Position numbers and translations under genes: made by a program. The notes beneath the pieces were generated by a model. That model searched no databases and had not been told where the DNA came from. It was given only the letters and a program-made list of their open reading frames with translations. Of a stretch of DNA of 64,000 bases, positions 12,280 through 26,993 are shown in pieces. Source of the DNA: Gammaproteobacteria bacterium. GTDB lineage: Bacteria; Pseudomonadota; Gammaproteobacteria; Pseudomonadales; Azotimanducaceae. Position 1 is the first letter of the stretch. Every line of letters begins with the position of its first letter. The stretch lies in NCBI GenBank assembly GCA_026706385.1, contig JAPOYV010000072.1, positions 1-64,000 of the forward strand, written 5' to 3'.

Positions 12280-12861
12280 TTAGTTTCCGGTTCCGTTCGC
12301 TCGGGCTCTTGCGGTCGCGGCGACCTTGCGCCGTTCGCGGCGTTGCTGCCAGCGCCGGACGGCGTGCAGCCGCCAAAGCGTGCGCGAGACGACAGCGCCG
12401 GTGAGGCCGGCCACCCAGCCGCACACCAGGCAGCCGACGATGAGTGGCCACCAGATGGCCACGAAGGTCTCGCCGACCCATGACCAGGACAGTTCCCACT
12501 CGACGTCCTGGGTTTCGACGCCGAGTAGCCACGCGCCGAGCTTGTAGGCGAAGAAGAACATCGGCGCGAACGTCAGCGGGTTGGTGATCCAGACCAGGGA
12601 CACCGAGATCGGCAGGTTGCAGCGCGCGAGGATCGCGAGCAGCGCGGCGAGGAGCATCTGCGTCGGCACCGGCACGAAGGCGCAAAACAAGCCGATGAAG
12701 AAGGCACCGCCGACCGAACGCCGATGCAGGTGCCACAGTTCAGGCTCAAGTAGCCGATGTCTTACAGGCCCGAGAGAGTTCTGCCGACGAATCCACTCCT
12801 GGGTCGGCAGATACTTGCGAATCCACTTTCGAGGCACGGCGTTCGCCACGCGGATTGCCAT
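12280..12861 (-). CDS. DUF2062 domain membrane protein
   Basis: The 193-residue product matches DUF2062 proteins: a basic N-terminus (PRKWIRKYLP), then a membrane region with GGAFFIGLFCAFVPVPTQM and VWITNPLTFAPMFFFAY, followed by another long hydrophobic helix and an Arg/Ala-rich tail. Its function is not established in the family. The same family member sits between lolE and comEC in Pseudomonas. Its ATG is only 15 bp from the comEC start on the other strand, so the two promoters must overlap the opposite coding regions. Confidence 0.8.
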   Translation of the reverse strand: MAIRVANAVPRKWIRKYLPTQEWIRRQNSLGPVRHRLLEPELWHLHRRSVGGAFFIGLFCAFVPVPTQMLLAALLAILARCNLPISVSLVWITNPLTFAPMFFFAYKLGAWLLGVETQDVEWELSWSWVGETFVAIWWPLIVGCLVCGWVAGLTGAVVSRTLWRLHAVRRWQQRRERRKVAATARARANGTGN

Positions 12862-12876
12862 CCGAAGGCACGCATT

Positions 12877-15192
12877 ATGCCGGGCATGTTGGATCAAAAG
12901 GACATCCGAGTTTGGGCGCTGGCGTTCTCTGCCTGCGCGGTACTCGCGCATTGGCTGCCTTGGGCGCAGTCGCTGTGGCCCTATTGGCTGATTGGCGGCA
13001 GCCTGGCGTTGCCCGTCCGCCACCTGCGCTTGGTGGCCGTCGCAGCGCTCGGACTGGGTTGGACCGGCTCGAACATCGCGAACGCCCTCCACGCCCCGAT
13101 TGACGCTGTGTGCGGCGGTGTTGAGATCGCCGGCCGCGTCGCAGGATTACCGACCCGGTCGGCTCCTGGTTCTGGGGCTGTGCCGGCACACCGCTTCGAG
13201 TTCCTGGTCGACGGGCCGTCCGCCCCGGCCTGCGTGGTGGAAGGCCGTTTGCGGCTGGTGTGGCTAGCTGGTCCCGGGCTTCGCGGCGGCGAAGCATGGG
13301 CGTTGCGCGCCCGCCTGCGACCGCCGAGTGCGGCGGCCAACGAGCACGGTTTCGACGCAGGTCGCTGGCACGTGCGCCAAGGAACCGTCGCCACCGGCTA
13401 CGTCACCGCCGGACGGCCCGGTGGCGACGCCCCGGGCCTGGGCGCCATGCTGGACCGATTTCGAGAGCACTTGCGCGACGGGCTTGAGGCCTTGCCGCTA
13501 GTCAACCCAGGCGTCATCGCGGCGCTGACGATCGGCGACTCGGCGGCGATTCCGCGAGCCGACCTGGAACGCTACCGGCGCACGACGACGATGCACCTGT
13601 TGGTCATCTCCGGGCTGCATGTCGGCGTCGTCACCGCATTCGGCTTCCTGTTCGGACGCGGTGTGGCGTTCCTGCTGGGGGTGCGCTCCAAGCCGGTCGC
13701 GGTCGCCGGCGGTTTGTTATGCAGTGCGGGTTACGTGCTTCTCGCTGGTGCGGGGCTGTCTCTGGTGCGCGCGTTCACCATGTCCACCGCGGGCATGCTG
13801 GCGCTTGTCAGTGGCCGGTCGGTCTCGACCGTGGGCGCGTTCAGCTACGCAGCGGTGGTGGTCCTGCTGGTGGATCCCATGGCACCGCTGGTGGCCGGGT
13901 TCTGGCTGTCGTTCGGCGCAGTCGCGGTTCTGCTGGGCTTCTTCGCGCCCCGGAGCCGGCGTGACTCCTGGCTCCTCTCCGCGCTCAAGGCCCAGTTGGC
14001 CATGGCCCTTGTATTCGCGCCGGTGGTCATCGCGATCATCGGCCTGGTCCACCCCTTGGGCGTGCTGGTGAACCTGGCTGCAGTCCCTCTGGTCACGCTG
14101 CTCACGGTGCCGCTGGCCCTTGCCGGGACGGTACTGATCGGATCGCCCTTCGGCGAGTGGCTGCTCCTCGGTGCTGATTTCTGTGTCTCGTGGTGCGACG
14201 AGATCCTGCGCCTGGCGGATCGCCTCCGACCGGTCTACATCGCCACGGCCTCGCCGTGGCTGTTTGCGGCAGGCGCGGCTGCGGCGGTTTGCCTGCTTCC
14301 CGTATCGAGACTCGCGAAGACCGGTCTGGCATCGGTAGTCGCGCTGGTTCTGGGTTGGCCGTTGCTCGGCCCGTCGTCGACGCCGCCCGGGCACGTGGAG
14401 GTCGAAGTCCTTGACGTCGGGCAGGGCACGTCGGTCGTGGTTCGGACCCATAGTCATACGATGGTCTACGACGCCGGTCCGGCGTTTCTGACCGGTGGCG
14501 ACGCGGGCTCGGGCGTCGTACTGCCGGCGTTGCACGGCCGCGGGCTCGATCAGGTCGACGTGCTCGTCCTGAGCCATAGCGACCTCGATCACGTCGGAGG
14601 TGCTGAATCGGTGTTGGCGGGCGTCGATGCCAAGTCCGTGCTGGCGGGCGAGCCCGTTCCCGGGATCGCGACGCAACCGTGCGGCGCGGGGATGGCGTGG
14701 CGATGGGATGACGTCCGGTTCCGCGTGGTGTGGCCACCGAGCATGCGGACGTTCGAGGGGAACGACGCCTCGTGCGTCCTGCTCATCGGGACGAATGGCG
14801 AGCGTGTGCTATTGGCCGGGGACGTCGAGAGCGCTGCGGAGCTGGCACTGGATTTGCCGCCCGTGGACCTGCTCCTGGTCCCGCACCACGGCAGTGCGAC
14901 CTCGTCGTCCCAGGCGCTGGTGGACATGACGGAGCCGGCTTTCGCTGTGATCGGTGCGGGTTGGGACAGTCACTTCGGTCACCCTCATCCCGCCGTCGTC
15001 GAACGCTATCGCTCCACGGGCGCGCACATCGTGTCCACCGCCGTGTCCGGTGCGGTGCGTTGGCGCAGCATCCGTCCCGATGTCCTGGACACGGTGCGCT
15101 GTCGGCCGGTGCCGTACTGGCGGAAGCTCCCGACAGGCCCTTGGCGCCGGCCGTCGGCCCTCAGCCGTCGATTGGCGGACTGTCACCAATGA
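12877..15192 (+). CDS. comEC: DNA internalisation protein ComEC/Rec2
   Basis: ComEC forms the inner-membrane channel for single-stranded DNA during natural transformation. The 771-residue product has an N-terminal DUF4131-like region, the competence domain with [13 protein letters not shown] and many helices, and a C-terminal metallo-beta-lactamase domain with [26 protein letters not shown] and [13 protein letters not shown]. These are the usual three parts at full length. I chose the ATG at 12877; an ATG at 12886 is possible. No other competence genes are in the window, so transformation cannot be inferred from this alone. Confidence 0.9.
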
Positions 15193-15278: not shown

Positions 15279-17852
15279 ATGCAACTCGAACGGTTGACCA
15301 CCAGGCTGCAGGCCGCCATCGCGGCGGCGCAATCGGTTGCGGTCGGCCGTGACCATCCGGCTGTGGAACCGCTGCACCTGCTGGCAGCGTTGCTCGATGA
15401 AGGCGGTACCAACGCCTTGCTGCAGTCCGCGGGCGTCGATTTGACCGCTCTCGCGCGGACCGTTGAAGGCCGGTTGGACGACCTCCCCCGGGTCGGCAAG
15501 CCGGACGGCCAGGTCGCCCTGTCGGGGGAACTCGTGCGTTTGCTGAACTTGGCGGACCGCGAGGCGCAGCGTCGGGGCGACCAGTTCATCTCGACCGAAC
15601 TCGTGCTGGCCGCCATGGCTGGTGCGGGAGGCCCGGCCGGCGACGCGCTTCGCGACGCCGGCTTCGACGCCGGCCGATTCGATGCAGCGGTCGATGCGGC
15701 CCGCGGCGGCGAGTCCGTGCGCGACGCCAACGCGGAGGAGAACCGCCAAGCGCTGGACCGGTACACGGTCGATCTCACCGCGCGCGCCGAGGCCGGCAAG
15801 CTCGATCCGGTGATCGGGCGGGACGACGAGATTCGCCGCACCGTGCAGGTCCTGCAGCGGCGCACCAAGAACAACCCCGTGCTCATCGGCGAGCCGGGTG
15901 TCGGCAAGACCGCCATCGTCGAAGGCTTGGCGCAGCGGATCTTGAACGGCGAGGTCCCGGAAGGCCTCAAGAACAAGCGCATCCTGGCCCTCGACATGGG
16001 TTCGCTGATCGCGGGGGCCAAGTTCCGCGGCGAGTTCGAGGAGCGCCTGAAGGCCGTACTCAACGAACTCGCCAAGCAGGAAGGCAACGTCATCCTGTTC
16101 ATCGACGAACTGCACACCGTGGTCGGGGCCGGGAAGGCGGAGGGCGCGATGGACGCCGGCAACATGCTCAAGCCCGCGCTAGCCCGCGGCGAGCTGCACT
16201 GCGTTGGCGCCACGACCCTCGACGAATACCGCCAGAACATCGAGAAGGACGCGGCCCTGGAACGGCGCTTCCAGCAGGTGCTGGTGGACGAGCCCAACGT
16301 TGAGAGCACGATCGCGATCCTGCGCGGCCTGAAGGAACGCTATGAGTTGCACCATGCCGTGGACATCACTGACCCCGCCATCGTCGCCGCGGCTCGGTTG
16401 TCCCACCGCTACATCACTGGGCGTCAGTTGCCGGACAAGGCCATCGATCTGATCGACGAGGCCGCCAGCCGAATCCGCATGGAGATGGACTCCAAGCCGG
16501 AGAGCATGGACCGCCTCGAACGGCGCCTGATCCAGCGCAAGATCGAACTCGAGGCGCTCAAGGGCGAGACCGACGAGGCGAGCGAGAAGCGCCGTGCCGG
16601 CCTCGAGGGGACCATCGCCGAGCTCGAACGCGAGTTCGCCGACTTGGAAGAGATCTGGACGAACGAAAAGGCCAGCGTGAACGGCGCGCAGCGCGTCAAG
16701 GAGTCCCTGGACGCCGCGCGCCTGGAATTCGAAGCGGCCCGTCGCACGGGCGACCTGGCCAAGATGGCGGAACTCCAGAACGGCCACATTCCCGCCTTGG
16801 AGCGCCAGCTCGCGGAGGCCCAGGAGCGCGATGCCAAGGGCAACGTGCTGCTACGCAACCGGGTGACCGATGCGGAGGTGGCCGAGGTTGTTTCCAACTG
16901 GACAGGCGTGCCGGTCAGCCGCATGCTCGACGGCGAGCGTGACCGGCTGCTCAAGCTCGAGGACGAGTTGCACCGTCGCGTCGTCGGCCAGGACGAGGCC
17001 GTCAACGCGGTGGCGCAGGCGGTCCGGCGGGCTCGAGCTGGTCTTGCGGATCCGAATCGGCCAAACGGCAGCTTCCTGTTCCTGGGACCGACGGGTGTCG
17101 GCAAGACGGAGCTGTGCCGGGCGCTTGCCGAGGCGCTGTTCGACAGCGAGGATGCCATGGTGCGTGTCGACATGTCGGAGTACATGGAGAAGCACGCCGT
17201 CGCGAGGTTGATCGGCGCGCCGCCAGGCTATGTCGGCTACGAGGAAGGCGGCCAGTTGACCGAACGTGTGCGTCGCCGACCTTACTCGCTCATTCTCTTG
17301 GATGAGATCGAGAAGGCCCATGCGGACGTCTTCAATATCCTGCTGCAAGTGCTCGAGGATGGCCGACTCACCGACGGCCACGGGCGCACGGTGGACTTCC
17401 GCAACACGGTGCTGGTCATGACCTCCAACCTCGGCTCGGACGCGATCCAGGCGCTTGCCAGCGAGGGGCTGGACACGGACATCCGCGATGCGGTGATGGA
17501 CGTGGTCGGCCGCTCTTTCCGGCCCGAGTTCGTCAACCGCATTGACGACGTGGTGGTCTTCCAGTCGCTCAAGAAGGACAACATGGCGGCGATCGCGGAG
17601 ATCCAGTTGGCCCGGCTGCGGGCGCGGCTGGCCGACCAGGATCTCGGCCTGATCGTCGACGATCAGGCTATGGCAGCGCTGGTGGAACAGGGCTACGACC
17701 CGGTGATCGGCGCCCGGCCCTTGAAGCGGGCCATCCAGCATGCCTTGGAGAATCCCTTGTCCACCGCCTTGCTCGAGGGCCGGTTCGCGCCGGGCCAGAG
17801 CATAGCGGTCAGCTACGACGGCGACGGGATGCGGTTCCAAAGCGCCAACTGA
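15279..17852 (+). CDS. clpB: ATP-dependent chaperone ClpB
   Basis: ClpB is a hexameric disaggregase that works with DnaK to recover aggregated proteins. The 857-residue product has the double N-terminal repeat domain, the first AAA+ module (Walker A GEPGVGKT, Walker [16 protein letters not shown]), a coiled-coil middle domain around residues 410-530, and the second AAA+ module ([27 protein letters not shown]). Length and layout are those of ClpB, not ClpA: the middle domain is present. It sits between comEC and exbB, which are usually adjacent, and has its own heat-shock-type promoter. Confidence 0.97.
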
Positions 17853-17855
17853 CCG

Positions 17856-17890
17856 GACCGTTTTGCGGTCGCTGAAGACCGCAAGCGGTC
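17856..17890. terminator. Hairpin between convergent clpB and unknown gene
   Basis: TTGCGGTC (17863-17870) pairs with GACCGCAA (17877-17884) across a 6-base loop, and flanking GACCG (17856-17860) pairs with CGGTC (17886-17890). The stem lies 3 bp after the clpB stop. No T-run follows. Confidence 0.45.
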
Positions 17891-17906
17891 GGGCGGGAGA
17901 GCGTGT

Positions 17907-18644
17907 TTACGGCGTCGGCGTTTCGACTGAGTCCAGCACGACGTTCACCTCGCCGCCGCCGAATGTGTCGGGCAGGGTCGTTCGGCTCTGCACCGTGTGG
18001 TGCGGGGGAGAGCGGGTGACCCAGTAGAGCCCCGGTGTTCCCGTGGACTCCGGGTCGTTGATTTCCAGGCGGTAGGTCTCGAACGTCCCGGCCGGGGTCG
18101 CGGTGCTCTCGGTCTGCGTGACGACCACGCGCCACCGTCTCTCCATCTGCATGGTCGGTTCGAATGTGGTTAGCTCGACCGTGGAACCGGGTGTCAGCGG
18201 CAGGACGGCCAGGACGCTCTCCATGTGACCGATGGCCGGCGCGCTCAAGGGGACGTCGATCGGGACGTGTTGGCCGTCCGGGAACGACGCTTGGCCTTGC
18301 ACGGCGCTGTCGGTGTAGTCCATCGCGAGCCGCACGCCGGCCTGTTCCACGGTCCGGTGAACTGGCAGCAGGTCGTCGCGCCTCAAGTAGATGTCCTCGA
18401 CCATCCGGCCAAGCGACGAGTCGTTGACCACGTGCACGAGCCAGACGTCGTGCCTATCGCGGGTCGTGCGGGTCCACGACGTGCTGGTTGTCATGTCGAC
18501 GGTTTCTTCTGGGAGCTCGACGGCCATGCGATAGGTTCTGGTCTGCTCCGTCAGCTTCGTGCCGTCGACCGCCGGATTGGCGGCTGCGGCGATGGTGAAC
18601 GCGGCGGCGGAAAGAGGCAGCAGGCGCCGGGTCGTTGGTCTCAT
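17907..18644 (-). CDS. Secreted protein of unknown function
   Basis: The 245-residue product begins with a signal peptide (RRLLPLSAAAFTIAAAANPA). The start at 18644 is chosen because AAAGGAGG lies 8-9 bases upstream. The mature part is rich in beta-strand-like Thr/Val alternation and contains TPAGTFETYRLEI near the C-terminal third, a segment resembling the 'AGTF..YR' strand of DUF3108-like periplasmic proteins, but this is not a firm family call. It is alone on the minus strand between clpB and exbB. The 232 bp to the exbB start (18645-18876) must hold divergent promoters; none is clear. Confidence 0.7.
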   Translation of the reverse strand: MRPTTRRLLPLSAAAFTIAAAANPAVDGTKLTEQTRTYRMAVELPEETVDMTTSTSWTRTTRDRHDVWLVHVVNDSSLGRMVEDIYLRRDDLLPVHRTVEQAGVRLAMDYTDSAVQGQASFPDGQHVPIDVPLSAPAIGHMESVLAVLPLTPGSTVELTTFEPTMQMERRWRVVVTQTESTATPAGTFETYRLEINDPESTGTPGLYWVTRSPPHHTVQSRTTLPDTFGGGEVNVVLDSVETPTP

Positions 18645-18876
18645 GGCCAAGCCTCCTTTGTCCCATGCCGTAACCGGCAACGTTGGAACAGCTTGGGAGT
18701 CTGGCTGAGTTCACGCGCTCGCGGCAAGCCCTCGAACTGTCCAACGCGAAGTGAGGGTGAAGCACAGAGGCGATTCCAACGGCTCATTGGACAGCGGGGC
18801 CTAACGGCCTCGAGCCGCGCTTCGTGCGGACGTGCTACGGTACGTGGCGGAACCACCATGCGGGGGGTCGCGAGAC

Positions 18877-19482
18877 ATGGTCGACTTCCTCCAAGCTGGC
18901 GGTTGGCTCATGGTGCCGCTGGCGGTGGCCAGCGTGGTCGCGCTGGCGATCTGCATCGAGCGCGCCTGGTCGCTGCGCCGCGCTCGCATCGTGCCGTCAC
19001 ACCTGTTGGCCGACATCGCCGCTCATGTCCGTGGCGACGACATGGCCCAAGCGCGTTCCCTGTGCACGGCGAGCGCACTGGGTCGTATCCTGCTTGCTGG
19101 TTTCGACAGCGCATCGCGGGGTCGGGACGCCGTGCGGGAAGCGATGGAGGACGCGGCGGGCGCGGTTGTGCACGACCTCGAACGGTACCTCACGGCGCTC
19201 GGCACGATTGCCTCGATTAGCCCGTTGCTCGGCCTGCTGGGCACGGTGATCGGCATGATCCGCGTCTTCGCCGCGTTGATGCGCGACCAATCCGCCGAGG
19301 TGACGGTGTTGGCGGGTGGCATTTCGGAAGCGCTGGTCACCACGGCCGCGGGCTTGACGGTGGCGATTCCTGCGCTCATGTTTCACCGCTACCTGTTGCG
19401 CAAAGTCGACGATCTCACGGTGGAGATGGAGCATCATGCCACGCGTTTCGCGGATCTCCTGCATCCCGAGCCACGGTCGTGA
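18877..19482 (+). CDS. exbB: MotA/TolQ/ExbB proton channel family protein
   Basis: The 201-residue product has the ExbB/TolQ layout: one N-terminal helix (WLMVPLAVASVVALAICIE), a cytoplasmic loop, and two C-terminal helices with GTIASISPLLGLLGTVIGMI and TTAAGLTVAIPALMFHRYL. With ExbD it converts the proton gradient into mechanical work on an outer-membrane partner. The equivalent position in Pseudomonas holds exbB2. There is no tonB gene here, so the partner is unknown. The ATG at 18877 is preferred; an open frame extends to 18832. The stop overlaps the exbD GTG start (GTGA). Confidence 0.85.
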   Translation: MVDFLQAGGWLMVPLAVASVVALAICIERAWSLRRARIVPSHLLADIAAHVRGDDMAQARSLCTASALGRILLAGFDSASRGRDAVREAMEDAAGAVVHDLERYLTALGTIASISPLLGLLGTVIGMIRVFAALMRDQSAEVTVLAGGISEALVTTAAGLTVAIPALMFHRYLLRKVDDLTVEMEHHATRFADLLHPEPRS

Positions 19483-19913
19483 AGTTCTCCCGTCGCCGTC
19501 GCCCGGGCCGCGGTGCCAGCACGGTCGAACTGACCCCGCTGATCGACGTCGTCTTCCTGTTGTTGATCTTCTTCATGGTGTCGACGACGTTCAAGCGCGA
19601 GTCGGCGCTGGCCGTCGAACTGCCCGACGCCCAGGGCGCGCCCCGCGAAAGTGCCGCGGCGGAGATCACGGTGCGGGTCGGCGCGTCGGGCTCGGTCGCG
19701 GTCAACGACGAGCTCCTCCCCGACGGCGAGGTGGGCACCGTGGCCGCTGCATTGGATAGAGCGTCCGGGGCGCGTGTCGTGGTTGCGGCCGATGCGGCCG
19801 CCCGGCACGATGCCGTGGTGCGCGTATTGGATGCCGCGGGCCGCAGCGGCTTGACCGAGGTCCGCATCCTGACGGCACGCAAAGCGGTAGAGGATCACGA
19901 TGGCGGAGGCTGA
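19479..19913 (+). CDS. exbD: Biopolymer transporter ExbD/TolR family protein
   Basis: The 144-residue product has the short basic cytoplasmic N-terminus, the single helix with the essential membrane aspartate (ELTPLIDVVFLLLIFFMVST), and a periplasmic domain, as in ExbD and TolR. It pairs with the preceding ExbB. Its GTG start overlaps the exbB stop, and its 3' end overlaps the next gene by 14 bp. Confidence 0.88.
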   Translation: MKFSRRRRPGRGASTVELTPLIDVVFLLLIFFMVSTTFKRESALAVELPDAQGAPRESAAAEITVRVGASGSVAVNDELLPDGEVGTVAAALDRASGARVVVAADAAARHDAVVRVLDAAGRSGLTEVRILTARKAVEDHDGGG

Positions 19914-22791
19914 GCGCGCGACCCCGCCCGAGGCGGTCTCGGCCGACGATGGCGACGGTCCGCAGGCGGTGCGCGCGACGAGCGACTGGCAGACCTATCG
20001 GCGGCTGTTCGGCTACGTGACCGACCAACTCGGTTGGTTCCTCCTGGCGTTGCTCGGGTTCCTGCTCACGGCTGCCGGCGAGGTGGGATTCGTGAGGGTG
20101 TTCGGCATCATCATCGATGAGGTCGAGTACCCCATGCCCGCGTACATCTGGCAGTTCCCGCTGCTGATGCTCAGCCTCGCCCTGGTCCGCGCCTTCGGCA
20201 CCGTGACGGGCGAATACACGCTCGCGCGCGTTTCCTTTCGGGCGGTCCACGTCATCCGTGCGCAGTTGTTCGAGCGTCTGCTTTTGTTGCCGAGCAAGTT
20301 CTACGACGAAAGCGCGCGGGGGCAGCTGGTCTCCAGGCTGACGTTCACGACGGCGCAGTTGCGCGACACCACCACCGATGCTCTGAAGATCGTGATCTCC
20401 GACGGGCTCAAGGTGATCGTCTGCTTGAGCGCCATGTTCATCTCCAACTGGATGCTGACGCTGATTTTCCTCGTGGTCTCGCCTCTCGTGGGATTGATAG
20501 TGCGCTACGCGTCGCGCCGCTTCCGGCGCTTGAGCACGCGCATCCAGAGTTCCATGGGCGACGTGACCCACGTCGCCGCCGAGGCGGTCGCGGGCTACCG
20601 CGAAGTCAAGATTTTCCACGGCGAGGCCTACGAGCAGATGCGCTTCGGCGCCGCCAGCGAGCGCAATCGGCGCCAGAACCTGAAGATGACCGCCACCAAG
20701 GCGAGCAGCGCGCAAGTGATCCAATGCATCGTCGCGGCGGCACTGGCGGTGCTCGTGGGGCTCATCTTCAGGCCCGATATTGGCGGCGGCATGTCGCCCG
20801 GAGACTTGGCCGCCTATCTGGGTTTCGCCGGCCTGCTCGCCAATCCCATCAAGAAACTCTCCGACGTCAACGCGCGTCTGCAACGCGGGCTCGCCGCGGC
20901 GACGGAGATCTTCGAGCAACTCGACGTCCCGGCGGAGGCGGATGCCGGCGATGTCGAGGTGGACCGTGTGGCGGGCGAGATCACCTTCGAGCATGTCTCC
21001 TTCGCCTACGATCCGTCCCGTCCAGCCGTGCTCGACGACGTCTCCTTCACGATCCGTGCCGGCCAGACCGTCGCCTTGGTGGGCAAGTCCGGGGCCGGCA
21101 AGTCGACATTGGCGAGCCTGATCGCGCGGTTCTACGAGCCGACGAGCGGCCGAATCCTGCTTGACGGGAAACCACTCGGCGAGTATCGCCTCGCCAGCCT
21201 GCGCCGGCAGATCGCGCTGGTGTCGCAGGACGTGACGTTGTTCAACGATACGCTGGCAAGCAATATCGCCTACGGCGGGCTCGCCGGCGCGAGTCGGGAC
21301 GCCGTCGCGACCGCCGCGCGGCGCGCCCACGCGGACGAGTTCATCCGCGCCATGCCGCACGGGATCGACACGGTGGTGGGCGATGACGGCGTCCTCCTTT
21401 CGGGGGGGCAACGGCAACGCGTCGCCATCGCGCGGGCGCTCCTGAAGGACGCGCCCGTGTTGATCCTTGACGAGGCCACGTCATCCTTGGACGCGCACTC
21501 TGAACGCCATGTGCAGGCGGCGCTGGAAGAGGTCATGCGCGGCCGCACGACGATCCTGATCGCGCATCGCCTGTCCACCGTGGAGAAGGCCGATGTGATC
21601 GCGGTGGTCGAGGACGGTGCCGTCATCGAGACCGGAACGCACGGGGACTTGATGGCTGCGGGAGGCGTCTACGCCGATCTATACCGTTCCCAGTTCGACA
21701 ACGGCGATGCCCCGGCGCCGCCAGCGCCACGGCGTCGCGTGCCGGCGGTCCTCCCGGTCCCGACGCCTCGGTTCGGGGGCATCGTCGATGCCTGGTACAG
21801 CGACCGGTTCTGGCCGCGGCTACTGTCGCCCATCGCCGCCGTGGTCGCGTGGTTCGCCGAGCGCCGTCGGCGCCGATTCCTCACCGGCCGGGCGAGGGCC
21901 TGGCAGGCCCCGGTGCCCGTGATCGTCGTCGGCAACGTGACCGTGGGCGGCACCGGCAAGACACCGCTAGTGATCTGGCTCGCACGCTGGCTCATGAATC
22001 GGGGCCTGGCCGTGGGGGTGGTGTCCCGCGGCTACGGCGGTCGCGCATCGTATCCGCTCGTCGTCGATGCGACGACGCCGGCGACCCAGTGCGGCGACGA
22101 GGCCGGCATGATCGCGCGTCGCACCGGCTGCCCCGTAGTAGTCGATCCGGATCGCCCACGGGCCGTGCGGCAACTGCTCGGGACCGCCGAAGTGGACGTG
22201 GTGGTGGCCGACGACGGATTGCAGCACTACGCCTTGCGACGCGACGTGGAAATCGCTGTGGTGGACGGGGCACGCGGGGTCGGCAACGGGCTTTGCCTGC
22301 CCGCGGGGCCGTTGCGCGAGCCAGTATTGCGACTGCGCGACTGTCATTGGGTGGTCGCCAACGGCGCGGCATGCGGGCTTGCCGAGCGGGAGTCCGTGAT
22401 GGCGGCTGAAGCGACGGGTTTCGTGAACCTGGCGAGCGGCGAGCGTGTCGAGCCCGACGACTTCGTGGCGCGCTTCGACTCCGTGGTCGCCGTCGCCGGC
22501 ATCGGCAACCCGAGGCGGTTCCAAGGGACCCTGGAAGCAATCGGCTTGGACGCCACCTTGCGCGCGTTCCCGGACCACCACGTGTTCTCCGCCGAGGACG
22601 TGGCCGTCGCTGACGGGCAGGTCGTAGTTGTCACGGAAAAGGACGGTGAGAAGCTCAAGACGTTCGACGCGTCCGCAGTCATCCATTGCTGGTACCTCGA
22701 GATCGACGTGGGCTTCGCGGGACCTGTGGACGACTTCCTTGAGGAGCTTCTTACCGAGCGCGGTGTCTTTCGCCAGACCGCGACCGCATAG
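19900..22791 (+). CDS. msbA-lpxK: MsbA-LpxK fusion: lipid A ABC flippase joined to tetraacyldisaccharide 4'-kinase
   Basis: One uninterrupted frame encodes 963 residues. Residues 1 to about 600 are MsbA: about six membrane helices, then Walker A (GKSGAGKSTLASL), signature (LSGGQRQRVAIARALL), Walker B (VLILDEATSSLD) and H-loop (IAHRLST). Residues about 600-627 are a Pro/Arg linker. Residues about 628-963 are a complete LpxK: a membrane-proximal N-terminus, P-loop VGNVTVGGTGKTPLV, VVSRGYGG, ADDGLQHYAL, PAGPLREP and VVTEKDGEKL. LpxK phosphorylates the lipid A precursor; MsbA flips the acylated lipid A-core. The genes are usually separate neighbours. An in-frame GTG in the linker could allow separate LpxK, but it has no ribosome site. 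The start overlaps exbD by 14 bp. Confidence 0.9.
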   Translation: MAEAERATPPEAVSADDGDGPQAVRATSDWQTYRRLFGYVTDQLGWFLLALLGFLLTAAGEVGFVRVFGIIIDEVEYPMPAYIWQFPLLMLSLALVRAFGTVTGEYTLARVSFRAVHVIRAQLFERLLLLPSKFYDESARGQLVSRLTFTTAQLRDTTTDALKIVISDGLKVIVCLSAMFISNWMLTLIFLVVSPLVGLIVRYASRRFRRLSTRIQSSMGDVTHVAAEAVAGYREVKIFHGEAYEQMRFGAASERNRRQNLKMTATKASSAQVIQCIVAAALAVLVGLIFRPDIGGGMSPGDLAAYLGFAGLLANPIKKLSDVNARLQRGLAAATEIFEQLDVPAEADAGDVEVDRVAGEITFEHVSFAYDPSRPAVLDDVSFTIRAGQTVALVGKSGAGKSTLASLIARFYEPTSGRILLDGKPLGEYRLASLRRQIALVSQDVTLFNDTLASNIAYGGLAGASRDAVATAARRAHADEFIRAMPHGIDTVVGDDGVLLSGGQRQRVAIARALLKDAPVLILDEATSSLDAHSERHVQAALEEVMRGRTTILIAHRLSTVEKADVIAVVEDGAVIETGTHGDLMAAGGVYADLYRSQFDNGDAPAPPAPRRRVPAVLPVPTPRFGGIVDAWYSDRFWPRLLSPIAAVVAWFAERRRRRFLTGRARAWQAPVPVIVVGNVTVGGTGKTPLVIWLARWLMNRGLAVGVVSRGYGGRASYPLVVDATTPATQCGDEAGMIARRTGCPVVVDPDRPRAVRQLLGTAEVDVVVADDGLQHYALRRDVEIAVVDGARGVGNGLCLPAGPLREPVLRLRDCHWVVANGAACGLAERESVMAAEATGFVNLASGERVEPDDFVARFDSVVAVAGIGNPRRFQGTLEAIGLDATLRAFPDHHVFSAEDVAVADGQVVVVTEKDGEKLKTFDASAVIHCWYLEIDVGFAGPVDDFLEELLTERGVFRQTATA

Positions 22792-22794
22792 ACG

Positions 22795-23562
22795 GTGGGC
22801 GTGCGCTTCTCCGTCGTCATTCCTGCGCGCTACGCCTCGACGCGACTGCCCGGCAAGCCGCTCTTGGACATTGCCGGGAAGGCCATGGTGGTGCGCGTCG
22901 CGGAACGGGCATTGGCGTCGGCCGCCGAGAACGTGGTGGTTGCCACCGACGATGCCCGCGTGCTCGACGCTCTCGGCGCGACGCCCGCCGCCGCGGTGAT
23001 GACGCGGGACGACCACCCGACGGGTTCCGACCGGGTGATGGAAGTCGTCGAACTGCAAGGCTGGGCCGACGACGACGTCGTCGTCAATGTGCAGGGCGAC
23101 GAACCGCTCATCCCACCGACGGTGATCGACCAGGTGGCGGGGCTCCTGCGAGACGGTTCGTGCGGCGTCGCGACCCTCTACGAGCCCATCACCCGCGGCG
23201 AGGACGTCTTCGACCCGAACATCGTGAAGGTTGTCGTCAACCGTTTTGGCCGGGCAATCTACTTCTCACGTGCGCCGATGCCCTGGTGGCGGGACGGCTT
23301 CGCGACCGACGTGCCGGACATCGCCGGTAGGGGGCCGGGCTGGAAACGCCACATCGGCATCTACGCCTACCGCGTGGCGGCGCTCCGGGAATTCGTCCAT
23401 TGGCCACCCAGCCCTTTGGAGGAGACCGAAGCCTTGGAGCAGCTGCGCCTGCTCGACCATGGCCGCGCCATCGCCGTCGCGGAAGCCGTCGCGCCGGTGC
23501 CCGGCGGTGTCGATACGCCCGGAGATCTCGAGAGGGTGTGTGGGGCCTTGTCATCCCACTGA
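22795..23562 (+). CDS. kdsB: 3-deoxy-manno-octulosonate cytidylyltransferase (CMP-Kdo synthetase)
   Basis: KdsB activates Kdo with CTP for transfer onto lipid A. The 255-residue product has the family signature FSVVIPARYASTRLPGKPL, VVVNVQGDEPLIPP for the nucleotide and metal site, FSRAPMPW and IGIYAYRVAALREF. The start is a GTG at 22795 or 22801, a few bases after the lpxK stop. In Pseudomonas a Trm112-like gene lies between lpxK and kdsB; there is no room for it here. It converges with the PQQ dehydrogenase gene. Confidence 0.93.
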   Translation: MGVRFSVVIPARYASTRLPGKPLLDIAGKAMVVRVAERALASAAENVVVATDDARVLDALGATPAAAVMTRDDHPTGSDRVMEVVELQGWADDDVVVNVQGDEPLIPPTVIDQVAGLLRDGSCGVATLYEPITRGEDVFDPNIVKVVVNRFGRAIYFSRAPMPWWRDGFATDVPDIAGRGPGWKRHIGIYAYRVAALREFVHWPPSPLEETEALEQLRLLDHGRAIAVAEAVAPVPGGVDTPGDLERVCGALSSH

Positions 23563-25148: not shown

Positions 25149-26993
25149 TCAAGCGAAGGGGTTGTCGAACTCCAGCGAAACCGCGTTGTCGTGGCCGGGC
25201 ACGCGAATGCCGTGCGCTGTGATCTCGAGATCCGTGCCCTCGAGTACCCCTTCGCCGTAACGGTAGATGGTCTCGGCATCCCCGCGCGTCGCGGCTGCGT
25301 CGTAGTCGAGCGCGGCGGTCCGCACGCCCTCGTTACGGCGCGCGTGCTTGGCCATCGCGGCCTTACCGTGGCGAGCGGCCATGATCTCGCGGGCAACGTG
25401 GGGCGCGAGCAGTAGCCCCGTGGCGTTGTTGCCACCGAAGCCCTTGGAATTCACCAGGGCCATGTCGACCGCCGCAGGATCCACCTCGATGTGTTCCGGG
25501 CCGATCCGCAAATGACTGTGGTGGACGTCCTCGGCCGGCTCGTCGATCGTGGCGATCCCCGGGATCCACCCGTACTGCCAGGTGCCGAGGGCGGACGTGG
25601 TCTGATCGCCCGACGCCGGGGCGAGCGTGTGTCCCAAGTACGCCTTCACGGCGGCGACGTTCCAGCGCTCGATGCCGAAGGTCTTCGCCATCTCGTTCAG
25701 GATGTGCGACTCGGTGACGCGGTTCTGCGGCGTGCCGGTGCCATGGGCGTGTACGTAGGACCGTTCCCGCACGGCGTCCTCGCCAAGAATCGCGCGTCCG
25801 AGGCCGAGTGCCTTGGCCACAGTGACATAGTTGCCGACCCCCGGCCCGGGGATCGACTTCTTGAAACCGTCGGCGTTGACGAAGACGTCCGCCACCGCGC
25901 CGTGGATGTCGGCACCGAGTTCGACCGCGAGCGCATCGTCCGTGAGCACCATGTAGACGCCGGCCTCGGCGAGGGTGAACCCGCAGTTCTCGGCGAACGG
26001 CCGGCATGCGCGGCGATTGTCCACCTCGGCGGCACCGTCTATGGCCATCAGGGCTTCGTCTTCGGCGAGCGCGCCCATGGTGCGGTAGGCCTCGACGACC
26101 TCCGGCAGGATGGGCGCCTCCGAACCGCCGATGACGGCGACGCGGCAGCGTCCGGCGCGGATATCGTGCACGGCGTTGCGCAGGTTGTAGAGGAACGTCG
26201 CGCAGGCGCCGATGACACCGCCGGTGGCACCGACGCTGCCGATCACGTACGCGTTGACGAAATCGATCGGCATCTCGCACAGGCCGAGCGCGGCCTGCTT
26301 CGACGTTGGCCGGCGGCCCATCAACGGTGCCTGCATCATGCCGCCGTTGCTGTTGTTGTCGAGCTGGCCCATCGCGCTGCCGGCGTACGCCGCGAACTGG
26401 TCGGGGCCGACGTGCCGGCGCAGTTCGTCCCAGGGGATCCCTACCGACTGCACCGCGTCGGAGGCGCCGTAGACGGACAGTTGCAGCCCGCGTGGGTGGC
26501 TGCGCGCCGCGTACAGGCGACCCGGTTCGAAGCCCGACGGGGCCTGGCCCGCAGACGTCACGCGCGACACGCGCCGGTCGGGAATAAGCACGGCCGTCCG
26601 CCGCGTCGTGACTTCGACCCGGCCGTCCTCGCGCCTGACCGTCGTCCAGCCGTCAGGCAGTTCGTCGGGGACTTCCCGGGCACGCAAGGTGAAGCTCAAG
26701 GTGCCGTCGTCGTCCACCGGCGTCAGGTGTGCGGCGCGCTGCCAGCGGATGCGCTCGGGATCGAAACACTCGATGCGCCGAATCAGGGTGTGATCGCGCA
26801 TGTGCTGGCGTAGCCCCTCGTCGCGCGAGTCGCCTTCGACGTTCATCAGCGTTGCGAGGCTTAAGTAGGTGTCGTCCGCCGATGCCTGGTCGATCGCGTC
26901 GATCACGGTGCGGCGGTAAGCGTGGTGGAAGGACACGCGGCCTGCGGGGTTGACTCCGCCAAAGCCGACGATGACCGGAAGCGGCGCGCCCAT
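25149..26993 (-). CDS. fabY: Beta-ketoacyl synthase of the FabY type
   Basis: FabY of Pseudomonas aeruginosa condenses acetyl-CoA with malonyl-ACP to start fatty-acid synthesis in place of FabH. The 614-residue product is close to FabY in length and far longer than FabB or FabF (about 410). The thiolase-fold active site reads GACATFLYN with the nucleophile at C264, HAHGTGT with H417, and KAYLGHTLAPA with H455, a Cys-His-His triad. About 190 N-terminal residues precede the synthase core. It follows the thiolase gene by 21 bp with a good GAGGTAGG ribosome site. A different ketosynthase role, such as in a specialised lipid, cannot be excluded. Confidence 0.75.
   Translation of the reverse strand: MGAPLPVIVGFGGVNPAGRVSFHHAYRRTVIDAIDQASADDTYLSLATLMNVEGDSRDEGLRQHMRDHTLIRRIECFDPERIRWQRAAHLTPVDDDGTLSFTLRAREVPDELPDGWTTVRREDGRVEVTTRRTAVLIPDRRVSRVTSAGQAPSGFEPGRLYAARSHPRGLQLSVYGASDAVQSVGIPWDELRRHVGPDQFAAYAGSAMGQLDNNSNGGMMQAPLMGRRPTSKQAALGLCEMPIDFVNAYVIGSVGATGGVIGACATFLYNLRNAVHDIRAGRCRVAVIGGSEAPILPEVVEAYRTMGALAEDEALMAIDGAAEVDNRRACRPFAENCGFTLAEAGVYMVLTDDALAVELGADIHGAVADVFVNADGFKKSIPGPGVGNYVTVAKALGLGRAILGEDAVRERSYVHAHGTGTPQNRVTESHILNEMAKTFGIERWNVAAVKAYLGHTLAPASGDQTTSALGTWQYGWIPGIATIDEPAEDVHHSHLRIGPEHIEVDPAAVDMALVNSKGFGGNNATGLLLAPHVAREIMAARHGKAAMAKHARRNEGVRTAALDYDAAATRGDAETIYRYGEGVLEGTDLEITAHGIRVPGHDNAVSLEFDNPFA

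Follow-up and report, generated by a model that had tools for sequence, protein, structure and literature searches.

MsbA, the lipid A flippase, is essential in Escherichia coli and is discussed as a drug target. The E. coli genes msbA and lpxK encode separate proteins of 582 and 328 amino acids (aa) and overlap by 4 bases (ATGA), with kdsB lying further down. The two genes are co-transcribed according to the available parts of two studies (PMC10328246, PMC4412817), and the latter also describes LpxK, the lipid A 4'-kinase, as essential in E. coli and discusses it as a drug target. We analyzed a DNA stretch of 64,000 nucleotides from a Gammaproteobacteria bacterium of the family Azotimanducaceae (positions 1 to 64,000 of contig JAPOYV010000072.1, assembly GCA_026706385.1; the whole stretch is called the window below). 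The gene order of the E. coli operon is also found in the window. Unlike the E. coli pair, however, MsbA and LpxK are encoded here in a single frame of 963 codons without a stop, which comprises a complete MsbA, a linker, and a complete LpxK. The parts of this msbA-lpxK fusion gene are as follows.

19900–22791, forward strand: msbA-lpxK fusion gene, 963 aa (translation, Pfam and NCBIfam matches; single frame kept in relatives)
19900–21699, forward strand: MsbA half, residues 1–600, with Pfam ABC_membrane at 48–316 and ABC_tran at 378–528 (profiles, match to a chain of known structure, motifs)
21700–21792, forward strand: linker, residues 601–631, rich in Pro, Arg, and Ala, varying in length and sequence among relatives
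21793–22788, forward strand: LpxK half, residues 632–963, with Pfam PF02606 at 640–950 (profiles, Aquifex alignment, motifs)
21808–21891, forward strand: N-terminal amphipathic helix and basic patch of LpxK, about residues 637–664, kept within the fusion (alignment with E. coli LpxK, hydrophobicity, charge)

A sequence-only reading of this locus had proposed a single frame of MsbA, a Pro/Arg linker, and LpxK, with the motifs of both halves kept. Translation and the Pfam and NCBIfam matches confirm this frame. The MsbA half passes the cut-off of the MsbA equivalog model TIGR02203 (682.6 bits, cut-off 602, residues 32–600) and stays below that of the narrower MsbA model NF008381 (574.5 versus 867 bits). 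It has the order of an ATP-binding cassette (ABC) half-transporter, a transmembrane domain followed by a nucleotide-binding domain (NBD), and its Walker A, Walker B, signature, and H-loop motifs are intact in sequence. The fusion shares these NBD motifs with MsbA proteins of known structure (PDB 9bd6, 8gk7, and 6bpl), and the 9bd6 chain aligns to residues 19–607. The MsbA chains of known structure among the matches listed are 569–607 aa long, and the fusion differs from them in carrying LpxK at the C terminus. The Pro/Arg-rich linker was also borne out, 31 codons separating MsbA residue 600 from Trp632, the first conserved Trp of LpxK. The LpxK half scores 332.5 bits with PF02606 (cut-off 27) and 235.8 bits with the lpxK model TIGR00682 (cut-off 91.95), and the structure of Aquifex LpxK (PDB 4ehx) aligns over most of it. 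The P-loop, the DDG, PAGPxRE, FPDH, and TEKD motifs, and the N-terminal amphipathic helix are shared with known LpxK proteins (PDB 4ehx and 4itl). The motifs checked in either half are thus present by alignment, as had been claimed.

The conservation of the fused frame in the family of the window (f1) should be noted. We read 134 f1 loci, consisting of 128 of the 135 LpxK-bearing genomes among 150 searched and 6 further genomes of genus g1; the remaining 7 genomes, with LpxK at or near a contig end, were left out. MsbA and LpxK lie in one stop-free frame in 118 of the 134 loci. A single stop-free frame is lacking in 14, and an adjoining MsbA is lacking in two (G149, at a contig end, and G166, within a contig). 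The junction is open in all 16 g1 genomes, the window included (the contig of G009 ends within LpxK, past the junction), and fused loci are also found in genomes assembled as one contig (G012, G013, G074, G096, and G113). The closest relative, the metagenome-assembled genome 'Gammaproteobacteria bacterium COS1_bin_18' (loci L009/L038), is 90% identical and has the same fused junction. The 14 loci without a single stop-free frame are those of 7 of the 10 g8 genomes, the five LpxK-bearing g57 genomes, one g53 genome, and G095. In the G095 locus (L213), one in-frame stop lies inside MsbA and the C-terminal part of MsbA is still joined to LpxK, pointing to an error or decay.

In the available part of a study on LpxK, Lys51, Thr52, Asp138, Asp139, and His261 (Aquifex aeolicus numbering) are given as catalytic residues, and the N-terminal amphipathic helix is described as needed for activity (PMC6286764). 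The catalytic residues align to Lys687, Thr688, Asp771, Asp772, and His893 of the fusion. Conservation was counted over 131 of 139 fused loci, eight short ones being left out. Lys61, Asp147, Asp148, His152, Arg182, Glu183, and His264 of LpxK (E. coli numbering) are kept in 130–131 of these loci, and Lys382, Ser482, Gly484, Asp505, Glu506, and His537 of MsbA in all 131. Conservative changes are found at Thr62 (Ser in 28 loci) and Asp108 (Glu in 4) of LpxK, and at Ser383 (Thr in 13), Thr384 (Ser in 6), and Gln485 (Glu in 14) of MsbA. The amphipathic helix and basic patch are similar in fused and separate forms in hydrophobicity and charge calculated from sequence. Both halves look active, judging from the conserved catalytic residues: the MsbA half would flip lipid A-core as a homodimer, as homology suggests, and 4'-phosphorylation of the lipid A disaccharide is the putative activity of the LpxK half.

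One LpxK match at E ≤ 1e-15 was found in the window genome. The same applies to every LpxK-bearing f1 genome except G146, in which the match is in two pieces on two contigs. No second MsbA-grade protein was found in the window genome, where the next match scores 252 bits versus 2129 for the fusion (36% over residues 110–598); shorter NBD-only matches of other ABC proteins show 38–47% identity, as expected. A second copy of LpxK or of MsbA grade is therefore not seen in this genome, which is rated 98% complete, so that an overlooked copy is not wholly excluded.

LpxK matches at the same threshold are absent from f1 genomes G025, G077, G099, G116, G131 (g11), G028, G080 (g14), G062 (g48), and G072 (g58), and from genomes G044, G265, G291, G314, and G335 of family f9 in the same order. 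G025 and G028 also have no MsbA-grade match. Six further f1 genomes without an LpxK match belong to genera in which other members have LpxK. Lipid A synthesis may have been lost in whole genera adjoining the fusing ones.

Beyond f1, no fusion was found in the same order among the matches listed (LpxK was detected in 278 of the 293 genomes there). A class-wide sample of 369 genomes contains at least 10 fused loci besides the window (G500, G716, G481, G629, G794, G699, G466, G614, G610, and G521), a lower bound taken from the matches listed, since a long linker can split a match. A phylum sample of 398 genomes, in which G521 appears again but is matched in MsbA only, gave no further full-length stop-free match among the matches listed. 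The order of G716, a gammaproteobacterial group of 4 families and 20 genera with genomes of 0.7–1.8 Mb, was scored by frame length. LpxK was found in 101 of its 121 genomes and lies in frames of at least 913 aa in 96 of these 101, the exceptions with shorter LpxK frames being G1264, G1281, G1279, G1209, and G1268. Direct reading of 12 of these 96 loci showed both domains in each. A stop lies within the match in 8 of the 96, of which G610 and G1164, read directly, have the fused frame intact. Fused loci are also found in families f92 and f111 (one genome each), f106, f132 (3 of 4 genomes), f209, and f200. In f200, LpxK frames reach at least 939 aa in 10 of the 11 g367 genomes (776 aa in G1186) and are 232–355 aa long in the other two genera. 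The fused form had been taken to be rare. This does not hold, since on the frames compared it is the usual state, and a stable design, in f1 and the G716 order, and six or more other families also have it.

Two other sets of candidates were examined. G255, a genome of the same order as the window, appeared fused by the length of its LpxK frame (968 aa), but its MsbA is in another frame and the locus is not fused. Among 20 loci in which MsbA lies in a long open frame, only G521 is fused, and 2 have no LpxK in the stretch.

The history of the fusion was examined with trees of MsbA and LpxK without the linker. The FastTree tree of 138 loci requires at least 10 changes between the fused and separate states, 9 of them forced by starred branches, and a mixture-model tree of 58 loci, without the separate f1 loci, requires 6 changes, 4 of them forced. 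These counts come from unrooted trees and cannot tell gain from loss. A topology that unites every fused locus in a single clade is rejected (approximately unbiased test, p-AU 1.7e-5), as is a clade uniting the other fused families (p 3.5e-36), whereas a clade of f1, the small-genome order of G716, and f92 is not (p 0.39). The rejection of a single fused clade suggests that the fusion probably originated repeatedly, in several events of which one is perhaps ancient; as the sampled class appears to be mostly unfused, gains are the simpler reading. Where g8 loci are split, a stop lies shortly after the conserved end of MsbA, and the LpxK frame begins only 71 bases later in G097 and 92 bases later in G173. 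The split lpxK genes of L170, L174, and L177 (g8) have TTG as the only start codon in the stretch scanned before the kinase.

To explain the fusion, we propose a bifunctional inner-membrane protein dimerized through MsbA, in which LpxK is held close to the inner leaflet by a flexible linker and at a 1:1 ratio, and we assign this proposal a rough probability of 0.55. The starting point would be an operon in which msbA and lpxK were already adjacent. The fusion would be made as one chain, and its MsbA half would fold and dimerize as usual, so that each NBD end would carry a complete LpxK on a flexible linker of about 20–80 residues. Using its own amphipathic helix, LpxK would dock on the cytoplasmic leaflet of that same membrane, which an extended tether would be long enough to reach. 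The sole lipid A 4'-kinase and the sole lipid A flippase would in this way be produced 1:1 at one place. That the fusion places kinase and flippase together can fairly be inferred. In favor of the proposal stand the single frame with two complete domains, the lack of a second copy among the matches, the coding-like linker, and the long retention and recurrence of the fusion, which is kept even in the small genomes of the G716 order. It is proposed further that the chain would stay uncut, that both halves would be active, and that co-location and a fixed ratio, rather than drift, would account for its persistence. The ratio should be noted: in the available part of a study on E. coli, LpxK is estimated at 432 copies versus 206 for MsbA, and is rate-limiting in the model once regulation is included (PMC4412817). 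An enforced 1:1 ratio would truly alter this balance and may therefore matter.

Several points weigh against the tethering proposal. An AlphaFold2 model, computed from the window protein and one relative of 90% identity, has a mean predicted local distance difference test score (pLDDT) of 30 and a predicted template modeling score (pTM) of 0.21, too low for the model to be used, so that the tether geometry is a proposal. WaaA, LpxL/LpxM, and the core enzymes act between the LpxK and MsbA steps; LpxK and MsbA thus do not act on consecutive intermediates, and direct hand-over of substrate from one to the other is unlikely. Conservation of the linker sequence is poor and points to no specific arrangement of the domains. 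About three later splits seem to have occurred within f1 (g8, g57, and g53), and the fusion is accordingly not indispensable. Finally, among 21 fused loci outside f1, an ATG was found before the kinase in 14 and an ATG with a Shine-Dalgarno match in 6, in the scan described below.

The main and serious rival is a neutral fusion, in which adjacent genes, often in frame, were joined by loss of the msbA stop or by an indel and the product, performing no worse than the separate proteins, was fixed by drift, with no benefit from tethering. We consider it somewhat less probable than the tethered protein. Outside f1, msbA and lpxK share a frame in 41 of 42 loci that keep them separate, and in most of these a single stop divides them, though these loci were chosen by full-length matches and are biased to in-frame cases. 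Another 15 separate loci include 8 with a shared frame. The 4-base overlap in E. coli, the re-splits in f1, and the weak constraint on the linker also agree with a neutral origin. However, the fusion became fixed in several families and was then retained at the frequencies given above for f1 and, by frame length, for the G716 order, whereas drift alone might be expected to leave more mixed clades.

The linker itself bears on whether one protein or two are made. Over 32 within-genus pairs, the pooled ratio of nonsynonymous to synonymous substitution (dN/dS) is 0.31 in the linker versus 0.07 in MsbA and 0.12 in LpxK, and the proportion of synonymous differences (pS) is 0.50 versus 0.47 and 0.48. 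Linkers in f1 range from 22 to 78 codons, and across the fused loci they are rich in Ala, Pro, Ser, Arg, Val, and Gly. When the linkers were shuffled, the probability of no stop was 0.92 for the window linker and 0.40 on average over fused loci, which is weak evidence per locus at this G+C content; multiplied over 31 f1 genera, each represented by its least surprising locus, the probability is about 10^-11.6. To judge from these values, the linker is coding DNA under weak constraint and behaves as translated.

We regard it as quite unlikely that the frame gives two proteins, either because translation of LpxK begins at a start inside the frame or because the linker is cleaved, a possibility to which the length, variability, and Ala/Pro/Ser/Arg-rich composition of the linker lend themselves. 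Start codons were scanned from 40 codons before Trp632 to 4 after it, with two MsbA and two LpxK stretches as controls. In contrast to a separate LpxK, the kinase of the window, placed behind MsbA in the same chain, has no ATG of its own in this stretch, where the single start codon is a GTG without a Shine-Dalgarno match. An ATG is found in 40 of the 118 fused f1 loci, at scattered positions (28/116, 12/118, 44/117, and 26/116 in the control stretches). An ATG with a Shine-Dalgarno match is found in 6 of 118, which exceeds both MsbA controls (2/116 and 2/118) but is below both LpxK controls (19/117 and 9/116). The same holds for ATG or GTG with a match, found in 29 of 118 loci versus 15 and 12 in the MsbA and 46 and 60 in the LpxK controls. 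The retained frame and low dN/dS of the linker also argue against two products. An internal start of LpxK, which the sequence-only reading had named as a refutation of the fusion, thus has no clear support in f1. Outside f1 it is less well excluded, since the ATG and Shine-Dalgarno rates of the fused loci given above are near those of 54 separate lpxK genes (40/54 and 18/54, respectively).

An assembly or sequencing error that deleted a stop between msbA and lpxK, the artefact against which the initial proposal was to be checked, has a negligible probability and was rejected: the window genome is in 134 contigs and the stop in G095 indicates that errors or lesions occur, but the single frame with the same junction is kept in 118 of 134 f1 loci, including one-contig genomes and COS1_bin_18.

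The genes around the fusion in the window are as follows.

12757–15192: comEC, further upstream
15279–17852, forward strand: clpB, further upstream
18832–19482, forward strand: TolQ/ExbB-like gene, upstream of the fusion (profile match below the cut-offs of the models)
19479–19913, forward strand: TolR/ExbD-like gene, its 3' end overlapping the start of the fusion by 14 bases (match below the cut-off of the model)
22795–23562, forward strand: kdsB, starting 3 bases beyond the stop codon of the fusion (profile match)

In other bacteria, comEC often lies nearer to the tolQ/exbB-like gene. In the window they are separated by clpB and a gene for an unassigned 257-aa protein on the reverse strand (15279–18680). 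Further along, at 25149–26993, a 614-aa β-ketoacyl synthase-like protein is encoded beside a thiolase gene; its matches to FabF models are far below the cut-off (best 101.7 versus 493.75 bits).

Among the open-access papers listed, judged by title and the opening of the abstract, none describes a naturally occurring MsbA-LpxK fusion; this evidence is limited, as most subscription journals lie outside this scope. Protein databases may label such fused proteins automatically. In the available parts of PMC10328246 and PMC2626281, the word 'fused' concerns other things, and the gene fusion in that of PMC4412817 is a construct with green fluorescent protein (GFP). MsbA and LpxK are known families; what is new is how they are joined, how fixed this architecture is in large clades, and that it recurs.

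A recurrent and long-retained fusion would be, in a 'Rosetta stone' reading, evidence for physical cooperation of MsbA and LpxK. Extended across Gammaproteobacteria, this reading would make MsbA a late hub of lipid A assembly, whose transport cycle could gate the flux-controlling kinase so that phosphorylation occurs only where export is possible; we consider this reading as a whole rather improbable. The fusion offers a natural construct in which to study lipid A assembly and marks groups that are apparently known mostly from fragmented genomes. Having probably arisen several times, and prevailing in one family and one order, it predicts that kinase and flippase are functionally linked, which is testable in E. 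coli.

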